Positions 2,345-46,411 of a stretch of DNA of 47,113 nt are shown one piece after another; position 1 is the stretch's first letter, and each line of letters starts with the position of its first letter. Below the pieces are notes generated by a model. It had not been told where the DNA came from. It ran no database searches and worked only from the letters and a program-made list of their open reading frames with translations. The position numbers and the translations under genes are program-made. Source of the DNA: a virus; the IMG/VR virus record IMGVR_UViG_3300017989_006424, positions 1 to 47,113 of that record, one strand, 5' to 3'.

Positions 2345-2463
2345 GGCTCGAAACCCTACAGAGAGCCGGGACCGGGCGGTCCGCGACGGATGCGCATTTA
2401 CCCATTCCGTCGTAGGCGACTGGAACGCCAGTTGAAACGCCTACCCGCCCGTCCCGGCGGGAC
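2345..2463 (+). ncRNA. Strongly folded RNA element (three-way junction) after the tRNAs
   Basis: Just after the tRNA pair lies a segment that folds into three nested helices. P1 pairs 2365-2372 with 2451-2458, and 2374-2379 with 2445-2450 (14 bp with one bulged C). Inside it, P2 pairs 2383-2390 with 2406-2413 (8 bp, 15-base loop). P3 pairs 2414-2418 with 2438-2442 and 2419-2423 with 2428-2432, with a TGAAA bulge. P2 and P3 abut, as in coaxial junctions. Two small hairpins, 2345-2349/2363-2367 and 2451-2455/2459-2463, would compete with P1. It matches no RNA family I recognise. A 41-codon very basic frame (2342-2467) crosses it but looks incidental. It could also be a palindromic mobile remnant. 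Confidence 0.55.
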
Positions 2464-2613: not shown

Positions 2614-3318
2614 ATGAGTACGCAAGTAGAAGTCACGAGGAGGGAGTGCATTATTGATTTATTGCGGGGCACGAACCGCAAGGGCATGGACGCTCTGATT
2701 GCCTACCTGGAGGACGAAGGCTTTTTCACGTCCCCGGCGTCCACGAAATTCCACGGAGCCTACCCGGGCGGACTGGCCGAACACTCGCTGAGGGTCTTTG
2801 ACCTATTGCAAGGCTACAGCAACGAGATCGACCTTGTGACGGCAACACGGCCGGGCCAGAAGCCGATTCCCATCGAGTACAACAACATCATCATCGCGGG
2901 CCTGCTGCATGACGTATGCAAGGTCGGGGCCTACATCGGGACCGAATCGCCGTACAAGTGGAATAAGCAACAGCCTTTCGGCCATGCCCTGTTGTCCATC
3001 GAGCGCCTCAAATGCTTCATCGGACTCAAAGAGCTGGAGGTCATGATGATCCGCTTCCACATGGGCATCTATGGCCTTCGAGAGTTCTACGAAGAGGACA
3101 GTTCGGAATATAGGACACATGCCGAATACCCGCTTCGCGGGGATCATTCCAAAGACCGCAAACTTACCAAAGAGCAAAGCCAGAAGGCCCGTTACGGCCA
3201 GTCGATGCGGAATGCGTGGTATCACAATCCGATCTGCAAGCTCATGTATTTCTGCGATGAGCTGGCGACGATGCAGGAAACGAGAGGGGGGGAAATTGAA
3301 AACCAACAAACTGTTTGA
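2614..3318 (+). CDS. HD-domain phosphohydrolase
   Basis: The 234-residue protein carries the HD metal-binding pattern: His57 (AEHSLRV), His99-Asp100 (LLHDVCK), His124 (FGHALLS) and His149 (RFHMG). HD proteins are metal-dependent phosphohydrolases or nucleases acting on nucleotides, cyclic nucleotides or RNA ends; the sequence does not say which. The segment FHGAYPGGLAEHSLR resembles HD proteins of the YhaM/3'-5' exoribonuclease type and phage HD proteins found next to recombination genes. Start 2614 is set by AAAGGAG six bases upstream; an in-frame ATG at 2545 has no such site. It is followed after 48 bases by the SMC-like ATPase gene. Domain call firm, substrate unknown. Confidence 0.75.
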   Translation: MSTQVEVTRRECIIDLLRGTNRKGMDALIAYLEDEGFFTSPASTKFHGAYPGGLAEHSLRVFDLLQGYSNEIDLVTATRPGQKPIPIEYNNIIIAGLLHDVCKVGAYIGTESPYKWNKQQPFGHALLSIERLKCFIGLKELEVMMIRFHMGIYGLREFYEEDSSEYRTHAEYPLRGDHSKDRKLTKEQSQKARYGQSMRNAWYHNPICKLMYFCDELATMQETRGGEIENQQTV

Positions 3319-20637: not shown

Positions 20638-20871
20638 CGCCTTGGGCGATGGAAACGAGCGGGTGTGTGACCCGCAAGGCATAGCAGACAAGTGAATATC
20701 GGGTTCACGGCTCACCCGGCCAGGTGAGTGGTGACGCAAGAACAAAACAAGCGGCCGTGTAGGGGCCTACACCCTTTACACGCGCCGCTTTTTTTGTTGC
20801 CCGCGCCAGGGCGGGAAGCCCGGGGGTTGGGACAGCCCCTCGAAAGGCGGGAAGCCAAAGGAGAATGTGTC
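20638..20871 (+). other. Gap before scaffold gene: several hairpins, no gene seen
   Basis: This 234-base gap holds a 6-bp hairpin GCGGGT/ACCCGC (20659-20675), a second CTCACC/GGTGAG (near 20711-20728), the terminator described separately, and the ribosome binding site AAAGGAG for the scaffold gene. No frame here has a convincing start. It likely sets the relative level of head genes. Confidence 0.5.
20751..20795 (+). terminator. Rho-independent terminator before scaffold and coat genes
   Basis: The stem pairs GCGGC(C)GTGTA at 20751-20761 with TACAC(GC)GCCGC at 20777-20788 and is followed by seven Ts (20789-20795). Inside the 5' arm, GTGTAGG and CCTACAC (20757-20772) can pair instead in a 7-bp hairpin, which would prevent the full stem, so an on/off arrangement is possible. 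Confidence 0.75.
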
Positions 20872-21687: not shown

Positions 21688-22854
21688 ATGGCTAATGAAC
21701 TGACAATGTTGACTCATACGATTCTAGCGAGAGGCTTGATGGTTCTCAGAGAGAGCTGTTTGATGCCGATGCTTGTGAATCAGGAGTATTCGCTTGCACC
21801 CAAACAAAAGGGCCAGACCATCGACGTACCGATCAGCAAAGTGGCCAGCACGTACGATATCACACCCAGCCACCAGGATAAGCAGGCGACCGGCACCGAC
21901 CTGGATTACGTGCAGGTGACCTTGGATCAGTGGAAGGGAACCGATTTTTATTTGACGGACCTGGAGCGGACTCGGATCGCCAAAGAGAAGTTCTGGCTTC
22001 CTTCGACCGTCCAGGAGAAAGTCAGAGCGCTGGCGAATGCGGTCAACGCCCATATTCTCAGTCAGTATTATGGGGTGTATGGCTTTGTCGGCACGGCCGG
22101 TACAACGCCGTTCAGTAATTCCACCGACCGAACCGCCGCGAAGGATGCCACGCAACTCTATGCCAGGCTCGACGATCAGCTTTGTCCGAAAGTGGGACGA
22201 CATGCGGTCATTGACACGATGGCGGAAGCGGAGGCGCTGGCGCTGCCCTATTTTGCCCATGCGGATAAGGCGGGCAGTCAGAACGTCATCGAGTTGGCTC
22301 AGATTGGCACGAAGTTCGGGATGAACTGGTTTATTGAGAACGCCATCGTCAGCCACACGGCGGGCACGCCGGGCGGCACGCCGCTGGTGAATGGAGCGCA
22401 TGAGGCGGCTACGAATGATTTGACCGATACGTTGGCCGTCAAGGGAATGACGGTGACGACTGGCGATTACCACCAGGGCGACATTATCACGATGGCGGGG
22501 CATTCTCAAACCTATGCGGTGTTGGCCGATGCCACGGCCGATGGTTCCGGCAATGCGTCGCTCAGTATTGCGCCGGGTCTTCAGGCAGCTCTATCGGGCG
22601 ACGAAGCGATTTCGCTCAAGGCCAGTCACACGGTCAATATGGCGTTCAACAGGGAAGCGTTCGCGTTTGCCACGGCTCCGTTCGAGAAGGACATCATGCC
22701 GGGCGTGGAGATGGCCGTGGTCAGAGATCCGGTCACGGGCCTGGTCTTGCGTCTGGAGGTCAAGCGTCAGTACAAGCAGACGAAGTGGGAATTCGACATT
22801 CTTTACGGCGCCAAGTGTGTCAGGCCCCGATTCGCCTGCCGGCTCGCTGGTTAA
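21688..22854 (+). CDS. Major capsid protein, P22 coat-like
   Basis: The 388-residue protein has features of the P22 coat protein family: an N-terminal LTMLTHTILARGLMVLRESC helix, KGQTIDVPISK and FYLTDLERTRIAKEKFWLPS stretches, and a middle insertion (residues ~220-320) rich in beta strands that corresponds to the I-domain position. C-terminal FDILYGAKCVRPRFACRLAG closes the fold. Several hundred copies would form the shell. AAGGAG precedes the ATG. Upstream is the scaffold, as in P22. Confidence is good that this is the coat; P22-type is inferred from pattern. Confidence 0.8.
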   Translation: MANELTMLTHTILARGLMVLRESCLMPMLVNQEYSLAPKQKGQTIDVPISKVASTYDITPSHQDKQATGTDLDYVQVTLDQWKGTDFYLTDLERTRIAKEKFWLPSTVQEKVRALANAVNAHILSQYYGVYGFVGTAGTTPFSNSTDRTAAKDATQLYARLDDQLCPKVGRHAVIDTMAEAEALALPYFAHADKAGSQNVIELAQIGTKFGMNWFIENAIVSHTAGTPGGTPLVNGAHEAATNDLTDTLAVKGMTVTTGDYHQGDIITMAGHSQTYAVLADATADGSGNASLSIAPGLQAALSGDEAISLKASHTVNMAFNREAFAFATAPFEKDIMPGVEMAVVRDPVTGLVLRLEVKRQYKQTKWEFDILYGAKCVRPRFACRLAG

Positions 22855-22855
22855 G

Positions 22856-22938
22856 ATGTCCGTCTGGGTGCATGGAGACGGACATGGCATCACAGGGTGT
22901 CCGCCTTACATCCAACGGGTAGGCGGGCAGGGGGCCAT
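22856..22938 (+). other. Two hairpins after the coat gene
   Basis: Immediately after the coat stop, ATGTCCGTC (22856-22864) pairs with GACGGACAT (22877-22885) in a 9-bp stem, and a second stem joins CCGCCT with AGGCGG at about 22909-22934. Neither has a T-run. They could stabilise the abundant coat mRNA or attenuate read-through to the head-completion genes. Confidence 0.5.
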
Positions 22939-22967
22939 AACAACACATACAGTGAGGAAGTCACAGG

Positions 22968-29962: not shown

Positions 29963-30505
29963 ATGGCGGATATTCTTGTTTTCTGGGGGCCGCATTGGAT
30001 GGAGTCGGCCACCGTCCATCAACTCAGCGAAGCCCACTTAGGCAAACAGTATCGCGAAAAAGTCGAGTCGCGGTTGCAGCGGGGCGACATCTGCACGGTC
30101 GGGCGGGACGGGCAGTATGTCCATGCGAAGCTCAAGAAACTGCGGTGCATCCAGGTGTCTGATTTTCCGAGCAAAGAGGCGGCGGCATTAACCTGTCCGC
30201 TGGAACGGCCTCGCACGTCGGACGAACGGGCCGGGGACACCGACGAAGAAGAGCGGCTGATTGCAGCCGAAAACAGCCAGCGACGTCGGAGGCAACGCCC
30301 TTTGATGGGATCGGACGAAGTGACGGCGTTGCGTGAAGGGATCCGGCAAGACCAGGCGGGGCGGCGGGTCATGGTCCGCCAGAAGTCACGCTATATCGAC
30401 GTGAGCCTGCTCGATGACAAGATCGTTCAAAAGCTTGACGCCCGAGAGCCGGTTCGTATGACGTGGGCCCAATTCAAATCGCTCATCTTTATCAAGGGGG
30501 TGTGA
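29963..30505 (+). CDS. Unknown tail-region protein, 180 residues
   Basis: The product has an N-terminal part (LVFWGPHWMESATVHQLS) and a highly charged, Arg/Asp/Glu-rich middle (90-125), then a possible beta segment (YIDVSLLDDKIVQKLD). It is encoded between the tail fibre-type gene and the beta-helix proteins, with a one-base ATGA-type overlap into the next gene. No family recognised; a minor tail role is plausible from position. Confidence 0.55.
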   Translation: MADILVFWGPHWMESATVHQLSEAHLGKQYREKVESRLQRGDICTVGRDGQYVHAKLKKLRCIQVSDFPSKEAAALTCPLERPRTSDERAGDTDEEERLIAAENSQRRRRQRPLMGSDEVTALREGIRQDQAGRRVMVRQKSRYIDVSLLDDKIVQKLDAREPVRMTWAQFKSLIFIKGV

Positions 30506-32145
30506 TGATCGAAGTGTATGTCGATCCCTCGGCGACCGGCGCCGGCGACGGAAGTAGCTGGGCGGACGCCTATACCGATTTAGAAACGGCGAACTACGAA
30601 TATCAAACCGACTTGGTCACCGCGCAGGAGTGCCTTCGGTTCAACTGCCGACGGGGGGACGGGGCGAGCAACAATCCGACCAGTGTGTCCATTACCGGGC
30701 ATGTGACCAGCGCCGACTATTATGCCATTTTTGAGTATGACGGCAGCCCGTTCGATCAACATGCGTTTCACATTGAAGGGACGCAGCCGTCCGGGGGGTC
30801 GTGCCTGGGCTTCACCGAAGATTTTATCGTCTGTCGGGGCTTTTACGTCTATTGCACACATCAGACGGCCAATTTGGTCGGGATCGGGCACCAGGGGGTG
30901 GCGGCGGCCAATCATTGCACGATTGAAAACTGCGTCATTCGCGGAACGTCCAACCCCACGTACAACACACGGGGCTATTATGGCAACGCGAGCATCAACC
31001 TGCCGAATTTGACGATACGCAATACCTTGATCTACGACATGGGATCGACCCTGTTCGGCGCGGGCATCAATGGGAAATACAACGAAGTCACGGTCCAGAA
31101 TGTGACGATCGTGGATACATGGCGCGGCGTGTGGTTGACGGAGGCCGGAACGGATATCACCATGACGAATGTGCTGGTGAAGGCGTCCGCCGATCAGGAT
31201 TATGTGCTGAACAATGAGGTCGTGGCCAACTACAACACCTGTGATTACTGCGCGGGTGAGGATGCGACGTGCGACCCGTCGAATTATCATTTCGGCTCCC
31301 ATTGCCGGCCATCCCAGACGTTTACGTTTGCCGATACGACGTATCACTTGGCGGCGACGGACACGGGGGCCTTTGGGTTGGGGCAGAACTTAGCGACGGT
31401 CTTTACGATTGACCTGGACGGGGACACGCGGGCCGTCTGGTCGATTGGGGCGGACGATGGGCCGGCCGGTGTCATCCAGTTATCCGGTGCGGTCGTTGGA
31501 ACATCGGGCCTGTCCGGGGGGATCTCGATCACACATAGGGTGGGCGGTACGTTGGCCGGTCACTCGTCGTGGGCCGGAACGGTGACCCTCGAACTGTCCG
31601 ACGTGGACGTGGCCGGGCGTCTCCAGGGGGCGGCGGGGCTGTCGGGGCGCTTGAGCGTGCAACGGCCCATGGGCGGAACGCTGGCCGGGCGTGCGACATT
31701 GAGCGGGGAGGCGTCGTTTCTTGATTGGGTGTTGTTGAAAGGCACGATCTCGGGCCGTGCGTCCCTGGGTGCCATTATGAATTTTGTGGACTGGTTTCCC
31801 TGGTACACACGACGGCCCAGGGCGACGGATTTTGTTCATCAACCCGGCCCCGAGACGGCGATGATCGCCCCGGTGTCCAGCGGCACGCCCCTGGTCGGTG
31901 AAGGCTGTGTCTTTGACGCGCAGCCATTCTTTTTCGCATTGCCCTATGTGTCCCAGGCTGTTAAGGAGAGCTATTTTTCGTTCTATAGGAACTATCGGGA
32001 TCGTAGCTTTTATTTCAGAAATCCCCAGGACGCCACAGGGTACAAGGTCGTCTTTGCCGAACCGCCGACCTGCCGAATACACGGCCGGGACGGTCTTTGG
32101 CTCATGGAATTTCATCTCATCCGAGAAACCAGCGGCACGTTTTGA
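30505..32145 (+). CDS. Beta-helix adhesin fused to minor tail core (gpM-like), copy 1
   Basis: This 546-residue product begins with EVYVDPSATGAGDGSSW, a start shared by three neighbouring proteins and typical of right-handed beta-helix (pectate-lyase-like) proteins. Residues ~20-310 hold repeated short strands (ENCVIRG, NCTI-like, TNVLVK). A stretch of GTLAG-type repeats follows (~340-430), then a C-terminal core with FVDWFPWYTRRP, FFALPYVSQ and SFYFRNPQDATGYKV that looks like a lambda gpM-like/minor tail domain. The same C-terminal core is found in copy 2. It would sit at the tail tip and bind cell-surface sugars or proteins. Confidence 0.65.
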   Translation: MIEVYVDPSATGAGDGSSWADAYTDLETANYEYQTDLVTAQECLRFNCRRGDGASNNPTSVSITGHVTSADYYAIFEYDGSPFDQHAFHIEGTQPSGGSCLGFTEDFIVCRGFYVYCTHQTANLVGIGHQGVAAANHCTIENCVIRGTSNPTYNTRGYYGNASINLPNLTIRNTLIYDMGSTLFGAGINGKYNEVTVQNVTIVDTWRGVWLTEAGTDITMTNVLVKASADQDYVLNNEVVANYNTCDYCAGEDATCDPSNYHFGSHCRPSQTFTFADTTYHLAATDTGAFGLGQNLATVFTIDLDGDTRAVWSIGADDGPAGVIQLSGAVVGTSGLSGGISITHRVGGTLAGHSSWAGTVTLELSDVDVAGRLQGAAGLSGRLSVQRPMGGTLAGRATLSGEASFLDWVLLKGTISGRASLGAIMNFVDWFPWYTRRPRATDFVHQPGPETAMIAPVSSGTPLVGEGCVFDAQPFFFALPYVSQAVKESYFSFYRNYRDRSFYFRNPQDATGYKVVFAEPPTCRIHGRDGLWLMEFHLIRETSGTF

Positions 32146-32146
32146 T

Positions 32147-33844
32147 ATGGCACAAGTGGACCTCTATGTGGATCCCTCGGCGACCGGGCTGGGGGACGGA
32201 ACAAGTTGGACCCATGCGTACACGTCATTGGAGATCGCGGTCAACGATAACGAGCAGGATCTCGTCTCGGCCCAGATCAATATCGTCTTTCACTGTCGGC
32301 GGGGGGACGGTGTGACCAACGACGTCCAAACCGGCTCGACGGTCATTCACGGCTGGACCACCAGCGCCGCGTACAACCTGCTGATTGAATACGACGGGTC
32401 CCCGCACGATGTGAACGCCTTCCATTTACATTCATCCGGTTCGGCGGCGACGGTGAACTGCCAGGAGGATTATGTCACCTTTCGGGGGGTGTATGTGTAC
32501 CTGACGAGTCTCACGGCGGCCAACAATGTGCTCTATATCAACGGACAGAACGCGGCCAATGCCATTGGGGTGGACCGTTGTGTGATCCGGGGGCCGAATG
32601 ACGCGACATACAAATCCCGCTGTGTGCAACTGGCGGATGACGATACGGTTATCGAGCTACGAAACTGCCTGATTGTTGACGCCGGCCAGGTGGCGTTTTC
32701 GGCGGGCGTGACGGCCCCGGCGGCCCCGACGGTGACGATGCAGAATTGTACCGTGGCCAACTGTTGGCGGGGGATCTGGCTGAGTAGCGACGGGACGGAC
32801 ACCACGCTTACGAATATCCTGGTGACCGGCTCGGACAGCAACGATTATACTTTCTACAACGCGATACAGTGCTGGGGGCACATCAACTATTGCGCCAGCG
32901 AGGATGATACCGCCGACGATGTGGCGTCAGGGACGGGCAACCGCACCAACCAGACGTTCACCTTCGAGGGGGCGACCTACCACTTGGATGAGGCCGATGC
33001 GGGCGCGCTGGATGTCGGCACGGACCTTTCAGCAAGCTTCACGGTGGACATCGACAATCGGACACGGCTTCGCTGGTCGATCGGCGCCGACGATGGGCCT
33101 CCGGAGGCGTTCAAGGTGTCGGGGACACTTGCGGGTCAGGCGACGCTCAGTGCGACGGCCAAAGTGACCACGCCGTTCAATCTGGCGGGAACGATGGCCG
33201 GTACGAGCGGCCTCACCGGCGCCGTGCATATCACAATGGCTCCGGCGGGGACGATTGCGGGAACGTCGTCTTTCAGTGCAACGGCGACCTTGACCGGTCC
33301 GGTGTATGTCTCGGGCACACTGGCCGGTCAGTCCATGCTCTCGGCCTTTTGTAATATCCGCTATCCGTTGTCGGGCACGCTGGCGGGCCAGTCCGGGCTG
33401 TCTGGAAGAATTTTCTTTCAAGGGCAATGCTGTATCGCCGGCGTTCTGGCGGGTCAGGCGTCCTTGAGTGCCATCATGAACTTTGTCAACTGGTTTCCCT
33501 GGTACACCGCCCGGCCGGTGATTGACCATTTCAAGGAGGAAATCGACGAGCACGCGACCGGGGTGTATCAGTATGCGAGCGGACGGCCGTTGGTGGTGGG
33601 CCGATTCACCCTGGCCCCTCATGTTTTGAGCTTTACCCTGCCAGACGTTTCAGGGACCGAGAGGACGAACTACTTTTCGTTTTATCAAGAGAAAAAGAGC
33701 GAACCCTTCTTCTTTAGAAATCCCCAGGACAGCCACGCCTACAAAGTCATATTTGATCGGGAACCGACGTGTGAACTGGACGGTCGGGCGGACCGTTGGG
33801 TCATGGGATTTCAGCTAAGGCAAGTGGCGGAGGTGGCGTTCTAA
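32147..33844 (+). CDS. Beta-helix adhesin fused to minor tail core (gpM-like), copy 2
   Basis: This 565-residue paralogue of the upstream gene starts AQVDLYVDPSATGLGDG and keeps the beta-helix pattern (DRCVIRGPNDATY, MQNCTVANCWRGIWL). Its GTLAG repeats are the longest of the three (about six units: SGTLAGQATLSA, AGTMAGTSGLTG, SGTLAGQSMLSA, SGTLAGQSGLSG and others). The C-terminal core (FVNWFPWYTARP, SFTLPDVSG, FFFRNPQDSHAYKVIF) matches copy 1, including the Phe-Arg-Asn-Pro-Gln-Asp stretch. It overlaps the next gene by TAATG. Tandem duplication is the simplest origin. Confidence 0.65.
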   Translation: MAQVDLYVDPSATGLGDGTSWTHAYTSLEIAVNDNEQDLVSAQINIVFHCRRGDGVTNDVQTGSTVIHGWTTSAAYNLLIEYDGSPHDVNAFHLHSSGSAATVNCQEDYVTFRGVYVYLTSLTAANNVLYINGQNAANAIGVDRCVIRGPNDATYKSRCVQLADDDTVIELRNCLIVDAGQVAFSAGVTAPAAPTVTMQNCTVANCWRGIWLSSDGTDTTLTNILVTGSDSNDYTFYNAIQCWGHINYCASEDDTADDVASGTGNRTNQTFTFEGATYHLDEADAGALDVGTDLSASFTVDIDNRTRLRWSIGADDGPPEAFKVSGTLAGQATLSATAKVTTPFNLAGTMAGTSGLTGAVHITMAPAGTIAGTSSFSATATLTGPVYVSGTLAGQSMLSAFCNIRYPLSGTLAGQSGLSGRIFFQGQCCIAGVLAGQASLSAIMNFVNWFPWYTARPVIDHFKEEIDEHATGVYQYASGRPLVVGRFTLAPHVLSFTLPDVSGTERTNYFSFYQEKKSEPFFFRNPQDSHAYKVIFDREPTCELDGRADRWVMGFQLRQVAEVAF

Positions 33845-35919
33845 TGGCACAAATAGACGTCTATGTCGATCCTTCGGCGAGCGGAAACGGGGACGGAACA
33901 AGCTGGACGGACGCCTATACGTCCCTCGATACGGCGCTCGATGACAACGAGCAGGATTTGGTGACGGCCGCGGACCATATTGTCTTTCATTGCCGGCGGG
34001 GGGACGAAAGCACCAACGACGGAGGCAGTACCACGCTGGCTGTCAATGGCTGGACCACCAGCGCCGATTACGATATTGTGATGGAGTACGATGGGTCCCC
34101 GCTTGATGCGAAGGCGTATCATTTACACGTCACCGGCGACGAGTGCCTGAATATCAATGAAGATTATGTCACGTTACGGGGCTTGTATCTGTACACGCCC
34201 ACCACCACCGCCAATACCGATGTGGTGTACGTGAGCAACGTGAACGCCTCGAACGCCGTTGTGATGGATCGTTGCATTGTCCGGGGGCCGGATAACGACA
34301 GCTACAAGACCCGGCTGGTGTATGTGGTCTCGGCCACTGTCGATCTGACGCTCCGCAACTGCCTGCTCTATGAGGGAGGGCAGGCGGCGTTTTCAGCCGG
34401 GGTGAATTCCGGGGCGGCGTGCGATGTGACGATGCAGAACTGCACTATCGCGAACTGCTGGCGGGGGATCTGGCTCAGCGCGGCGGGGGTCGAAGCGACC
34501 TTAACGAATGTCCTGGGCGACGATTGTACGAGCAGCACGTTCTGTATCGACAACACGAATTCGCAGAACAACGGACAGATCAATTACTGCGCAACGGAGG
34601 ATGACACGGCGGATGATATCGCCGGTGGGACGGGCAACCGTATTTCACAGACCTTCACCTTCAGCGACACTGTGTATCACCTGGATAGCACGGACACGGG
34701 CGCGTTGGGGTACGGTAACGATTTGTCGGCCACGTTCACGGTGGACATCGACAACGAGACACGATCCGGGTGGTCCATCGGGGCCGACGACGGGCCGGCC
34801 GATACGATGGAGCTGGACGGGACGCTGGCGGGTAGCGCTACTCTGTCCGGGACGGCATCGGTAGCGCGGAATGTGGCGGGGACGTTGGCGGGGCAGTCCG
34901 GACTGTCCGCAGCGCTCACCGGGGGGGATCAGCTTTATCCATCGGGCAGGCTGGCGGGGACGGCCACGCTGACGGCCCATCTGACCCGTGGGGGTCCGAT
35001 TGAGCTGGCGGGGACGATGGCGGGGGTCAGTACGCTGGCCGGAACGCTCACTGCCCCGGCCATCGAAACGAGTATTCCGCCCGCTATGCTGGCAGACATG
35101 ATTCAGCCGAACACGTCCGGGACCTGGATGTGGTTGTGCCAGTTCGTGGTCCCGACGCAAACATCGCGCTATTTAGCGCGCAATACAGAACCCGTGGTGT
35201 ACGCCGGACAGTCATACAATGCGTCCAATTTCAAGGTGGGCCGTCAGCCGTTTTGCGGAGACGGCTCGATTCCCCGCGTCATGTTGCAGGTGAGCAATGT
35301 CAATCAGCAGATGGAGCGGATCATCAATGCCACTCAGGGGGCGCTGGGCGGGCAGGTAAAGCTGATTCGCGTGAACAGCCGGTTCTTGACCAACCCGATT
35401 ACCGCCCTGGAATACGATTATCAGGTGTTGGCCTCGCAAAGCGACCGGCAATGGGCCACGTTTCAATTAGGTATTCCCAACCCCTTCACGCAGCCGGCGC
35501 TGTTGAGGCACTATTCGTGCAGTATGTGTCCCTACGCGACGCCGTCCCTCTACCGGGGGCCGGAGTGCGGGTACAGTCCCCACTTGACGGTGACGGGCGT
35601 TACGGTCACCGGGCCGGCGGTGCCTATCTATGTCTGGACGATTGGAATAAACCATCAGTTAGAGACGGGGGACAGGATCGAACTGGCCGGCATCACCGGC
35701 ATTACACCGAGCTTGAACGGGACCTGGACGATTACGGTCCTTGCCGGCAACTATTTTTCGCTCGATGGGTCCGACGTCGGCAGCTACAGCGGGTCCTACG
35801 GCGGGGGCGGGACGATTGCCTTTGCCGACTGCGACGGGTCCATTGAGGCGTGCCGGCGGCGTAATGGAGCCCGCTTTAACGGCGAGTTGGGCCTGGACCC
35901 CTCCGTGACACAGGTTTGA
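33844..35919 (+). CDS. Beta-helix adhesin fused to gpL-like Fe-S tail tip protein
   Basis: The 691-residue protein begins with the same module (AQIDVYVDPSASGNGDGTSW) as the two genes before it, with beta-helix strands and four or five GTLAG repeats (~325-405). The C-terminal 270 residues differ: they resemble lambda gpL, which closes the tail tip. Cysteines at 559, 562, 575, 663 and 670 (CSMCPY, PECGY, DCDGSIEACRR) match the Cys set that in gpL-type proteins coordinates an iron-sulfur cluster. So the adhesin module is joined to a different tail tip core. Lambda order (M, L, K, J) fits the flanking genes. Confidence 0.7.
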   Translation: MAQIDVYVDPSASGNGDGTSWTDAYTSLDTALDDNEQDLVTAADHIVFHCRRGDESTNDGGSTTLAVNGWTTSADYDIVMEYDGSPLDAKAYHLHVTGDECLNINEDYVTLRGLYLYTPTTTANTDVVYVSNVNASNAVVMDRCIVRGPDNDSYKTRLVYVVSATVDLTLRNCLLYEGGQAAFSAGVNSGAACDVTMQNCTIANCWRGIWLSAAGVEATLTNVLGDDCTSSTFCIDNTNSQNNGQINYCATEDDTADDIAGGTGNRISQTFTFSDTVYHLDSTDTGALGYGNDLSATFTVDIDNETRSGWSIGADDGPADTMELDGTLAGSATLSGTASVARNVAGTLAGQSGLSAALTGGDQLYPSGRLAGTATLTAHLTRGGPIELAGTMAGVSTLAGTLTAPAIETSIPPAMLADMIQPNTSGTWMWLCQFVVPTQTSRYLARNTEPVVYAGQSYNASNFKVGRQPFCGDGSIPRVMLQVSNVNQQMERIINATQGALGGQVKLIRVNSRFLTNPITALEYDYQVLASQSDRQWATFQLGIPNPFTQPALLRHYSCSMCPYATPSLYRGPECGYSPHLTVTGVTVTGPAVPIYVWTIGINHQLETGDRIELAGITGITPSLNGTWTITVLAGNYFSLDGSDVGSYSGSYGGGGTIAFADCDGSIEACRRRNGARFNGELGLDPSVTQV

Positions 35920-44493: not shown

Positions 44494-44561
44494 AACACGG
44501 AAAGTGAGGACAGACGATGACAGAACTCTATGAAGAACACAGATCCCAAACGCTCGATGAG
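44494..44561 (+). repeat. 68-base duplication, copy 1 (leader and gene start)
   Basis: The sequence 44494-44561 matches 44821-44888 with about seven differences. It covers the GAAAGTGAGG leader, the ATG and the first 15 codons of two neighbouring genes. The genes diverge completely after it. Confidence 0.85.
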
Positions 44562-44834
44562 CCTGAGCGCAACAGCGTTATCTTGGAAGATTGGCTTGCC
44601 GGCCTTGACTGGACGGCCAAACTCGGTTGCTGCTTTTTTCACGCCCTTCTGACGTCCAAATCGAAGCGACTGAAAGAGGTTGGTACGAACATGATGCGAC
44701 AATTTGATGTGGACATCATCGAAACAAGCGGAATGACCGCCTCTGAGGATTTCTATATCCGCGAACTGTATTTGATGTTCGCTGAGCACCGTGTCTCTCA
44801 GGAGGCGATCCATTTACTCGAACACGGAAAGTGA
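44517..44834 (+). CDS. Unknown protein with duplicated N-terminus, 105 residues
   Basis: The first 15 residues (MTELYEEHRSQTLDE) are a near copy of the start of the next gene (MTALFEKYRPQTLDE), carried on the 68-base duplication. The rest is unrelated helix (NSVILEDWLAGLDWTAKLG, FFHALLTSKSKRLKEVG). It therefore looks like a chimera: an unrelated protein brought under a copied leader. A 12-codon mini-frame (44482-44520) overlaps its start. Function unknown. Confidence 0.55.
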   Translation: MTELYEEHRSQTLDEPERNSVILEDWLAGLDWTAKLGCCFFHALLTSKSKRLKEVGTNMMRQFDVDIIETSGMTASEDFYIRELYLMFAEHRVSQEAIHLLEHGK

Positions 44835-44888
44835 GGATAGACGATGACAGCACTGTTTGAAAAATACAGACCCCAAACGCTCGATGAG
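44821..44888 (+). repeat. 68-base duplication, copy 2 (leader and gene start)
   Basis: This is the probable parent copy, since the matching codons continue into a well-formed AAA+ clamp-loader N-terminus (FEKYRPQTLDEVVGQ). It overlaps the end of the gene at 44517-44834. Confidence 0.8.
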
Positions 44889-46223: not shown

Positions 46224-46411
46224 GGGATGGATACATGTCAACTTCAAAGCCGATCTGTGGCGCCATAATATCACTACATATCCTCTTTTCAGCGAACCAT
46301 CCCTGATAGAAACACCTGTCAAGCGCCAAAAAGGCACTTTTACAGGTGGTAATCGGACAACAAGGACTATGCCCCACAAATCAACTTGCGCAGTAACGGA
46401 GATTTGATCCG
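46224..46411 (+). other. Gap with three hairpins, no gene seen
   Basis: This 188-base gap has GGGATGG (46227-46233) paired with CCATCCC near 46297, a large hairpin CACCTGT (46313-46319)/ACAGGTG (46342-46348) with an inner AAG.GCC/GGC.CTT stem, and AACGGA/TCCGTT at 46395-46413 just before the next start. The second one may end the preceding operon. No promoter is obvious. Confidence 0.5.

Follow-up and report, generated by a model that had tools for sequence, protein, structure and literature searches.

A strongly folded element directly behind two phage tRNA genes: a possible boundary of the tRNA unit

Introduction

Several structured RNAs may be compared with an element beside phage tRNA genes. 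They include the small stable RNAs of the T4 tRNA cluster, the sponge RNAs derived from 3′ external transcribed spacers of tRNA operons in bacteria, and the packaging RNA of phi29, which contains a three-way junction. In theta and HDV ribozymes, a closing helix with two hairpins makes up the layout known as P2/P3/P4. As far as we are aware, little is known about tRNA maturation in phages of the kind treated here. GOLLD and ROOL are phage-encoded structured RNAs often located near tRNA islands, and GOLLD env-38 is described downstream of a Met-tRNA (PMC12286853). Theta ribozymes are reported at the 3′ ends of phage tRNAs (PMC10879173). Hairpin clusters, in which poly-U is often missing, are described at operon ends in 13 genomes (PMC8355165). 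This report concerns a folded element that follows two tRNAs in a phage genome, and weighs the roles that it might play.

The locus and its gene context

The window, i.e., the whole stretch of DNA analysed, is a virus record of 47,113 bases whose called genes lie mostly on the + strand. Its gene order is RecE-like exonuclease, RecT, two tRNAs, HD-domain protein, SbcC-like ATPase, and ParB-like and HNH proteins, with DnaC-like and RusA-like proteins further along and then the packaging and structural genes. Among the terminase relatives found in bacterial genomes (n = 13), the largest group belongs to Planctomycetota (6 loci in 5 MAGs, two of them Sedimentisphaerales) and the other seven are scattered among other phyla, which is a hint, not a proof, that the host is perhaps a member of the Planctomycetota. 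The features of the locus are the following:

2131-2173, + strand: upstream hairpin, 10-bp stem (2131-2140/2157-2166) followed by TGTTTTG, -23.3 kcal/mol
2188-2258, + strand: tRNA-Glu (TTC), CCA not encoded
2263-2336 (Rfam) or 2262-2337 (ARAGORN), + strand: tRNA-Met, CAT anticodon, CCA not encoded
2337-2470, + strand: whole folded element, 134 bases, closed by a 6-bp A/T-rich helix (2337-2342/2465-2470)
2614-3318, + strand: HD-domain protein gene (Pfam HD, E 1.5e-4), AAGGAG ahead of its ATG

The two tRNAs are thus bracketed by a U-tailed hairpin before them and by the folded element after them. The hairpin at 2131-2173, which the terminator scan missed because of its loop limit of 8, is a terminator-like end of the RecE/RecT pair. 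It ends merely 14 bases ahead of tRNA-Glu, and the little promoter space left between them is consistent with read-through. Discriminator base A73 of tRNA-Met is position 2336, and the folded element begins one base later. Downstream, the HD gene lies on the same strand as the tRNAs and has a good Shine-Dalgarno-like site; a promoter scan of 2000-2800, limited to the sigma-70 type, found no such promoter, so that this gene may depend on read-through. The earlier note had seen no convincing protein in the element, and this holds: the 85-aa ORF at 2210-2467 overlaps the two tRNAs and drew no match in PHROGs or by tblastn, and a coding function was therefore rejected.

The tRNA with the CAT anticodon has a C1 x U72 mismatch, and its counterpart in the relative phage G018 has C1 x A72. 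Initiator tRNAs have an anticodon stem with three G-C pairs, which are absent in both. The tRNA of the window may be a Met elongator, initiator-like, or Ile2.

Anatomy of the folded element

Within the element, the predicted fold comprises the following parts:

2365-2379, + strand: 5′ arm of the closing helix, which has 14 bp and a single bulged C at 2372 or 2373
2385-2411, + strand: inner hairpin A, GACGGA/TCCGTC, 6 bp, extendable to 8 by two further pairs
2412-2444, + strand: inner hairpin B, helices of 7 and 5 bp on either side of the 5-nt bulge TGAAA, with loop AACG
2445-2458, + strand: 3′ arm of the closing helix

The closing helix and hairpins A and B form a predicted three-way junction, outside which TTGTTA (2337-2342) pairs with TAACAA (2465-2470). 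Pairing probabilities along the 5′ arm are 0.97-0.99, except for the C that can pair in two ways, at 0.49. All thirty-two pairs of the core are Watson-Crick, with no G-T pair. The length of 14 bp claimed previously for the closing helix stands once the bulged C is added, and the 8 bp given for one inner helix agrees in part with hairpin A; the 10 bp given for the other has to be replaced by the 12 bp (7 + 5) of hairpin B. A folded element does lie within 2345-2463, the extent first proposed, but it is better placed at 2337-2470, since the additional 6-bp helix closes the whole.

Small hairpins competing with the closing helix had also been proposed, and folding energies bear them out:

2345-2367, + strand: alternative 5′ hairpin, GGCTC...GAGCC, -6.7 kcal/mol, sharing three bases with the closing helix
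2369-2382, + strand: alternative hairpin, GGACC-GGGC-GGTCC, -7.1 kcal/mol
2451-2463, + strand: alternative 3′ hairpin, GTCCC-GGC-GGGAC, -5.8 kcal/mol, followed by TTAACAAG (two T only)

When increasing prefixes are folded, the hairpin at 2345-2367 is stable until the 3′ arm is made, as is the one at 2369-2382 at several lengths, and the closing helix prevails once about 120 nt have been made. The best fold without the closing helix is about 29 kcal/mol worse; the alternatives are thus early folding states rather than one side of an even switch.

Fold strength against chance

The fold is real and beyond chance. By comparison with dinucleotide shuffles, the 141-nt stretch 2335-2475 gives -60.2 kcal/mol on the + strand (z -3.55) and -67.1 kcal/mol on the - strand (z -4.96), with 0 of 200 shuffles as good in either case. 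The core (2365-2458) reaches -54.5 kcal/mol on the + strand and -59.0 on the - strand, with z about -5.6 on both and 0 of 1000 shuffles as good, values that are flattering because the ends of the core were picked after the fold had been seen. The 47 kb contain a single strict Watson-Crick stem of 7 + 7 bp with no more than one bulged base, that of the element; 40 shuffled windows held five such stems in total (mean 0.125 against the one observed). The description of a strongly folded stretch directly after two tRNAs is therefore sound, as every dinucleotide shuffle is beaten and tRNA-Glu and tRNA-Met lie directly upstream. That it is far more base-paired than the neighbouring gaps is right for whole gaps, but short hairpins elsewhere equal it per base.

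It is important to note that the + strand fold is good, yet not singular in the record. Among G+C-corrected 120-nt windows of the whole record, the element ranks first on the - strand. On the + strand its window comes 12th, and eight other places stand ahead of it; these include the hairpin at 12.57 kb, the structure at 22.86 kb and, near 20.75 kb, a U-tailed terminator. Over the whole 141 nt the - strand folds somewhat better, and the core does not discriminate between the strands. A fold without any G-T pair gives no evidence of selection on RNA rather than on DNA; the argument for an RNA is one of position only, since the tRNAs and the flanking annotated genes all read rightward.

Family and homologue searches

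The element had been called unrecognised, and the Rfam scan proposed with that claim agrees: at gathering level, Rfam 15 matches in the 47 kb only the two tRNAs, and at a loose threshold (E up to 10) nothing credible beyond the tRNAs, and no riboswitch, was found in 2150-2650. In viral contigs, relatives were sought by way of four proteins (HD, RecT, terminase and AAA), with two-row alignments for HD and RecT. Of two DNA patterns, the one for tRNA-Met gave 39 loci and the one for inner hairpin B had no match. From 244 terminase relatives 80 loci were kept, and 39 of these were searched as whole records, the other 41 being left out. No homologue was found in the searched phages and plasmids, in these 39 related phage records, or in the sampled Planctomycetota genomes. 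With blastn, the best pieces among the matches listed for phages and plasmids covered 14-30% of the query at E 0.1 or worse, and 392 Planctomycetota genomes held no copy, at most two candidates per genome being scored among the matches listed. Three short Planctomycetota matches (24-33 nt) covered a single part of the element, with no tRNA at the fetched locus, and were dropped.

A covariance model of the element, R1, had a single sequence, given in duplicate, as its input and is consequently weak on distant relatives. It found no homologue in 150 genomes (under stricter filters) or in the 39 related records, a result that shows little without a positive control, and its best foreign match (locus L174, 19.7 bits, E 0.29) was dropped as it lies over ORFs and outside a tRNA context. 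At thirteen RecT loci there was no match at E < 0.2; the one tRNA call there is an opposite-strand tRNA-Pro (L177), which overlaps the RecT match at its end. As no homologue was found, there are no compensatory changes to prove that an RNA is under selection.

One of these thirteen loci belongs to G004 (50 kb), the nearest relative phage and the only record with the same locus (HD 56-57% and RecT 70-72% identity). The order RecE-like, RecT, HD, ATPase is kept there, RecE and ATPase being judged by eye. In the gap there are two small ORFs and, just before HD, a hairpin that differs from the element and has a T-run, with neither a tRNA nor an R1-like element. The RecT of G004 (L102:7597-9507, - strand) has 636 aa against 316 in the window, with about 300 additional residues after ...RGQIDK that start with C-F-D-S-E-T and end in ...GN before C; by eye, this insertion looks like an intein.

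Survey of flanks behind phage tRNAs

A survey of the 39 tRNA-Met pattern loci plus the window (40 sources) gave 219 tRNAs and 80 distinct cluster-final flanks, a sample that derives from one tRNA pattern and from which near copies were dropped only if their first 60 flank bases were identical. Mean z was -1.02 in the flanks against -0.35 in 209 random stretches (Mann-Whitney p 9e-5). Values below -2 were found in 15 of the 80 flanks and 21 of the 209 random stretches, and values below -3 in 10/80 against 6/209 (9/79 with the window left out, Fisher p 0.007); the flank of the window ranks 9th of 80, with z -3.11. Stems with 11 or more strict pairs that begin no further than 40 nt from the tRNA, a threshold set after looking at the data, occur in 5/80 flanks and 3/279 controls (p 0.016), or in 4/79 flanks without the window (p 0.045). 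The 14-bp stem of the element is the longest among the 80. Flanks without strong structure are the majority, given that 65 of 80 miss z below -2 and 75 of 80 lack a stem of at least 11 bp near the tRNA. Structured trailers thus occur behind phage tRNAs in a minority of cases, and strong folding is mildly enriched there.

The G018 record carries a similar tRNA-Met. This tRNA, about 4 kb or less from the RecE/RecT-like genes of G018 (judged by eye), is followed some 2-3 nt later by a 10-bp hairpin of different sequence and without a T-run. Folded together with its surroundings over 120-130 nt, this hairpin is not unusual (z -1.58 and -0.67).

Other structures and repeats in the window

The gene at about 20.87 kb is preceded, at 20740-20800, by a strong hairpin with a T-run on one side and an A-rich run on the other, probably a bidirectional terminator; the stretch 20690-20830 has z -3.8 on the + strand and -4.8 on the - strand. 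Two hairpins occupy the gap behind the gene 21688-22854, at 22855-22945, and 22840-22960 is strand-specific (z -3.4 on +, -0.8 on -). Short words such as CGCCTACCCG are common to the structure at 22.84-22.96 kb and the element when compared by eye, a likeness taken as chance. On the - strand, 46250-46390 exceeds the element by this measure (z -5.3, 0 of 200 shuffles). Repeated gene modules about 1.65-1.7 kb apart, encoding long proteins of the structural region, are found at 30463-35919 and are roughly 60-90% alike across stretches of 27-178 nt. Finally, a 68-nt repeat (44494-44561 and 44821-44888, 90% alike) involves the start of a clamp-loader-like gene and an upstream copy.

Possible roles of the element

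The explanation that fits best, and that we put forward tentatively, is that the element is a structured trailer which bounds or shields the tRNA unit in a read-through transcript. What is observed is a fold that begins one base beyond the discriminator of tRNA-Met, annotated genes on the same strand, and a stem with no T-run behind it. A single transcript would run through the tRNAs toward the HD gene, and RNase P and RNase Z would excise the tRNAs, as CCA is not encoded. The leftover RNA would start at about 2337, with its first bases locked in the outer helix and in the three-way junction. Such a lock might keep exonucleases away from the downstream message at its new 5′ end, or from the 3′ end of tRNA precursors that have not been processed. 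The element may also slow or partly stop read-through, and by calculation early local hairpins, later rearranged, could delay the locked state. The fold beyond shuffles, the contact with the tRNA end, the G018 hairpin in a like position behind tRNA-Met and the enrichment among flanks speak for this trailer; against it, the core folds equally on both strands without a G-T pair, like a DNA palindrome, and most cluster-final phage tRNAs examined lack strong structure. Of the three roles guessed at in the earlier note, an element for tRNA processing is the one that fits best, the leader of the HD gene has become weaker because G004 keeps the RecT-HD order without tRNAs or an R1-like element, and the small RNA has gained no support. 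If the trailer reading is right, the element would show how the downstream message escapes destruction by tRNA processing in a phage that perhaps infects Planctomycetota.

The trailer has to be weighed against readings in which the same structure stops transcription or acts as DNA. A G+C-rich hairpin does stand at the end of the unit, but no T run follows the stem, where TTAACAAG is found, and the scan (loops 3-8) called no terminator; the missing T-run rules out a canonical U-tailed terminator. A terminator of the tRNA unit without a U-tract, working as a bulky hairpin cluster or with the help of Rho, comes next after the trailer but is rather unlikely: the cluster-final position and the long G+C-rich stem suit it, and termination by hairpin clusters without poly-U is described (PMC8355165), but this phage uses U-tailed hairpins elsewhere (2131-2173 and about 20750-20798) and the HD gene would be left without a visible sigma-70-like promoter. 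It is unlikely, too, that the element acts as DNA, as a cruciform-forming or protein-binding palindrome in replication, recombination or packaging. The 32 Watson-Crick pairs out of 32, the equal z of the core on both strands, the near-palindromic arms and the neighbouring recombination genes (RecE-like, RecT, SbcC-like) would agree with it; the element nevertheless abuts the tRNA to the base, has a single copy, and has no turn of GC skew nearby. A mobile palindromic repeat or its scar, suggested by the TTGTTA...TAACAA ends and by the other DNA that G004 carries at the locus, is highly improbable and was rejected, given one copy in the record, none in phages, plasmids or the sampled Planctomycetota genomes, and three short partial genome matches only.

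Other readings take the element as an RNA with a function of its own. The element is quite unlikely to be excised beside the tRNAs as a separate small phage RNA, about 110-134 nt long, that acts in trans or as a sponge: its compact stable fold lies beside sites where tRNA enzymes would cut, but no searched collection holds a homologue and no promoter-like site is present. It would be still more surprising if it represented a new class of small phage RNA, a three-way junction of about 134 nt freed by tRNA-processing enzymes and serving in its own right to decoy host RNases or regulators. Its importance as a new RNA would depend on relatives with compensatory changes, and at present it is one well-folded example. 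A regulatory leader (attenuator or riboswitch) of the HD gene, opposing the closing helix to the small hairpins, is very doubtful. Alternative hairpins do use each arm of the closing helix, and prefix folds favour 2345-2367 and, at several lengths, 2369-2382; however, some 140 nt separate the end of the element from the HD start, the closing helix is favoured by about 29 kcal/mol, G004 keeps the gene without the element, and no Rfam riboswitch matches. There is, lastly, scarcely any chance that an HDV-like theta ribozyme matures the tRNA 3′ end. The closing helix and two hairpins of the element resemble P2/P3/P4, but no mismatch-free P1 of 6-7 bp opening with G at most 5 nt from the tRNA end was found (a looser + strand search with one mismatch gave 63 matches, 25 of which were examined), and Rfam gave no HDV match at gathering level or at E up to 10; within the limits of these tests, this ribozyme was rejected.

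Comparison with known systems

GOLLD and ROOL are far larger, many GOLLD members exceeding 800 nt (PMC12286853), and the element has no Rfam match, including none of the phi29 packaging RNA kind. With theta ribozymes (PMC10879173) it has in common its place at a phage tRNA 3′ end and a closing helix with inner hairpins; it differs in having no P1 pseudoknot at the tRNA end and no Rfam HDV match. The stable RNAs of T4 and the sponge RNAs of tRNA operons are alike in their size of about 120 nt or in their adjacency to tRNAs, and a literature search on the former found nothing to the point. In its position and strong stem the element resembles the hairpins or terminators behind cluster-final phage tRNAs. 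Other phage tRNA flanks also carry long stems, several of them without a T-run (L120, which is in G018, L124, L134 and L144); compared with these, the element has a three-way junction, the 14-bp stem that is the longest of the 80, and an unrelated sequence.
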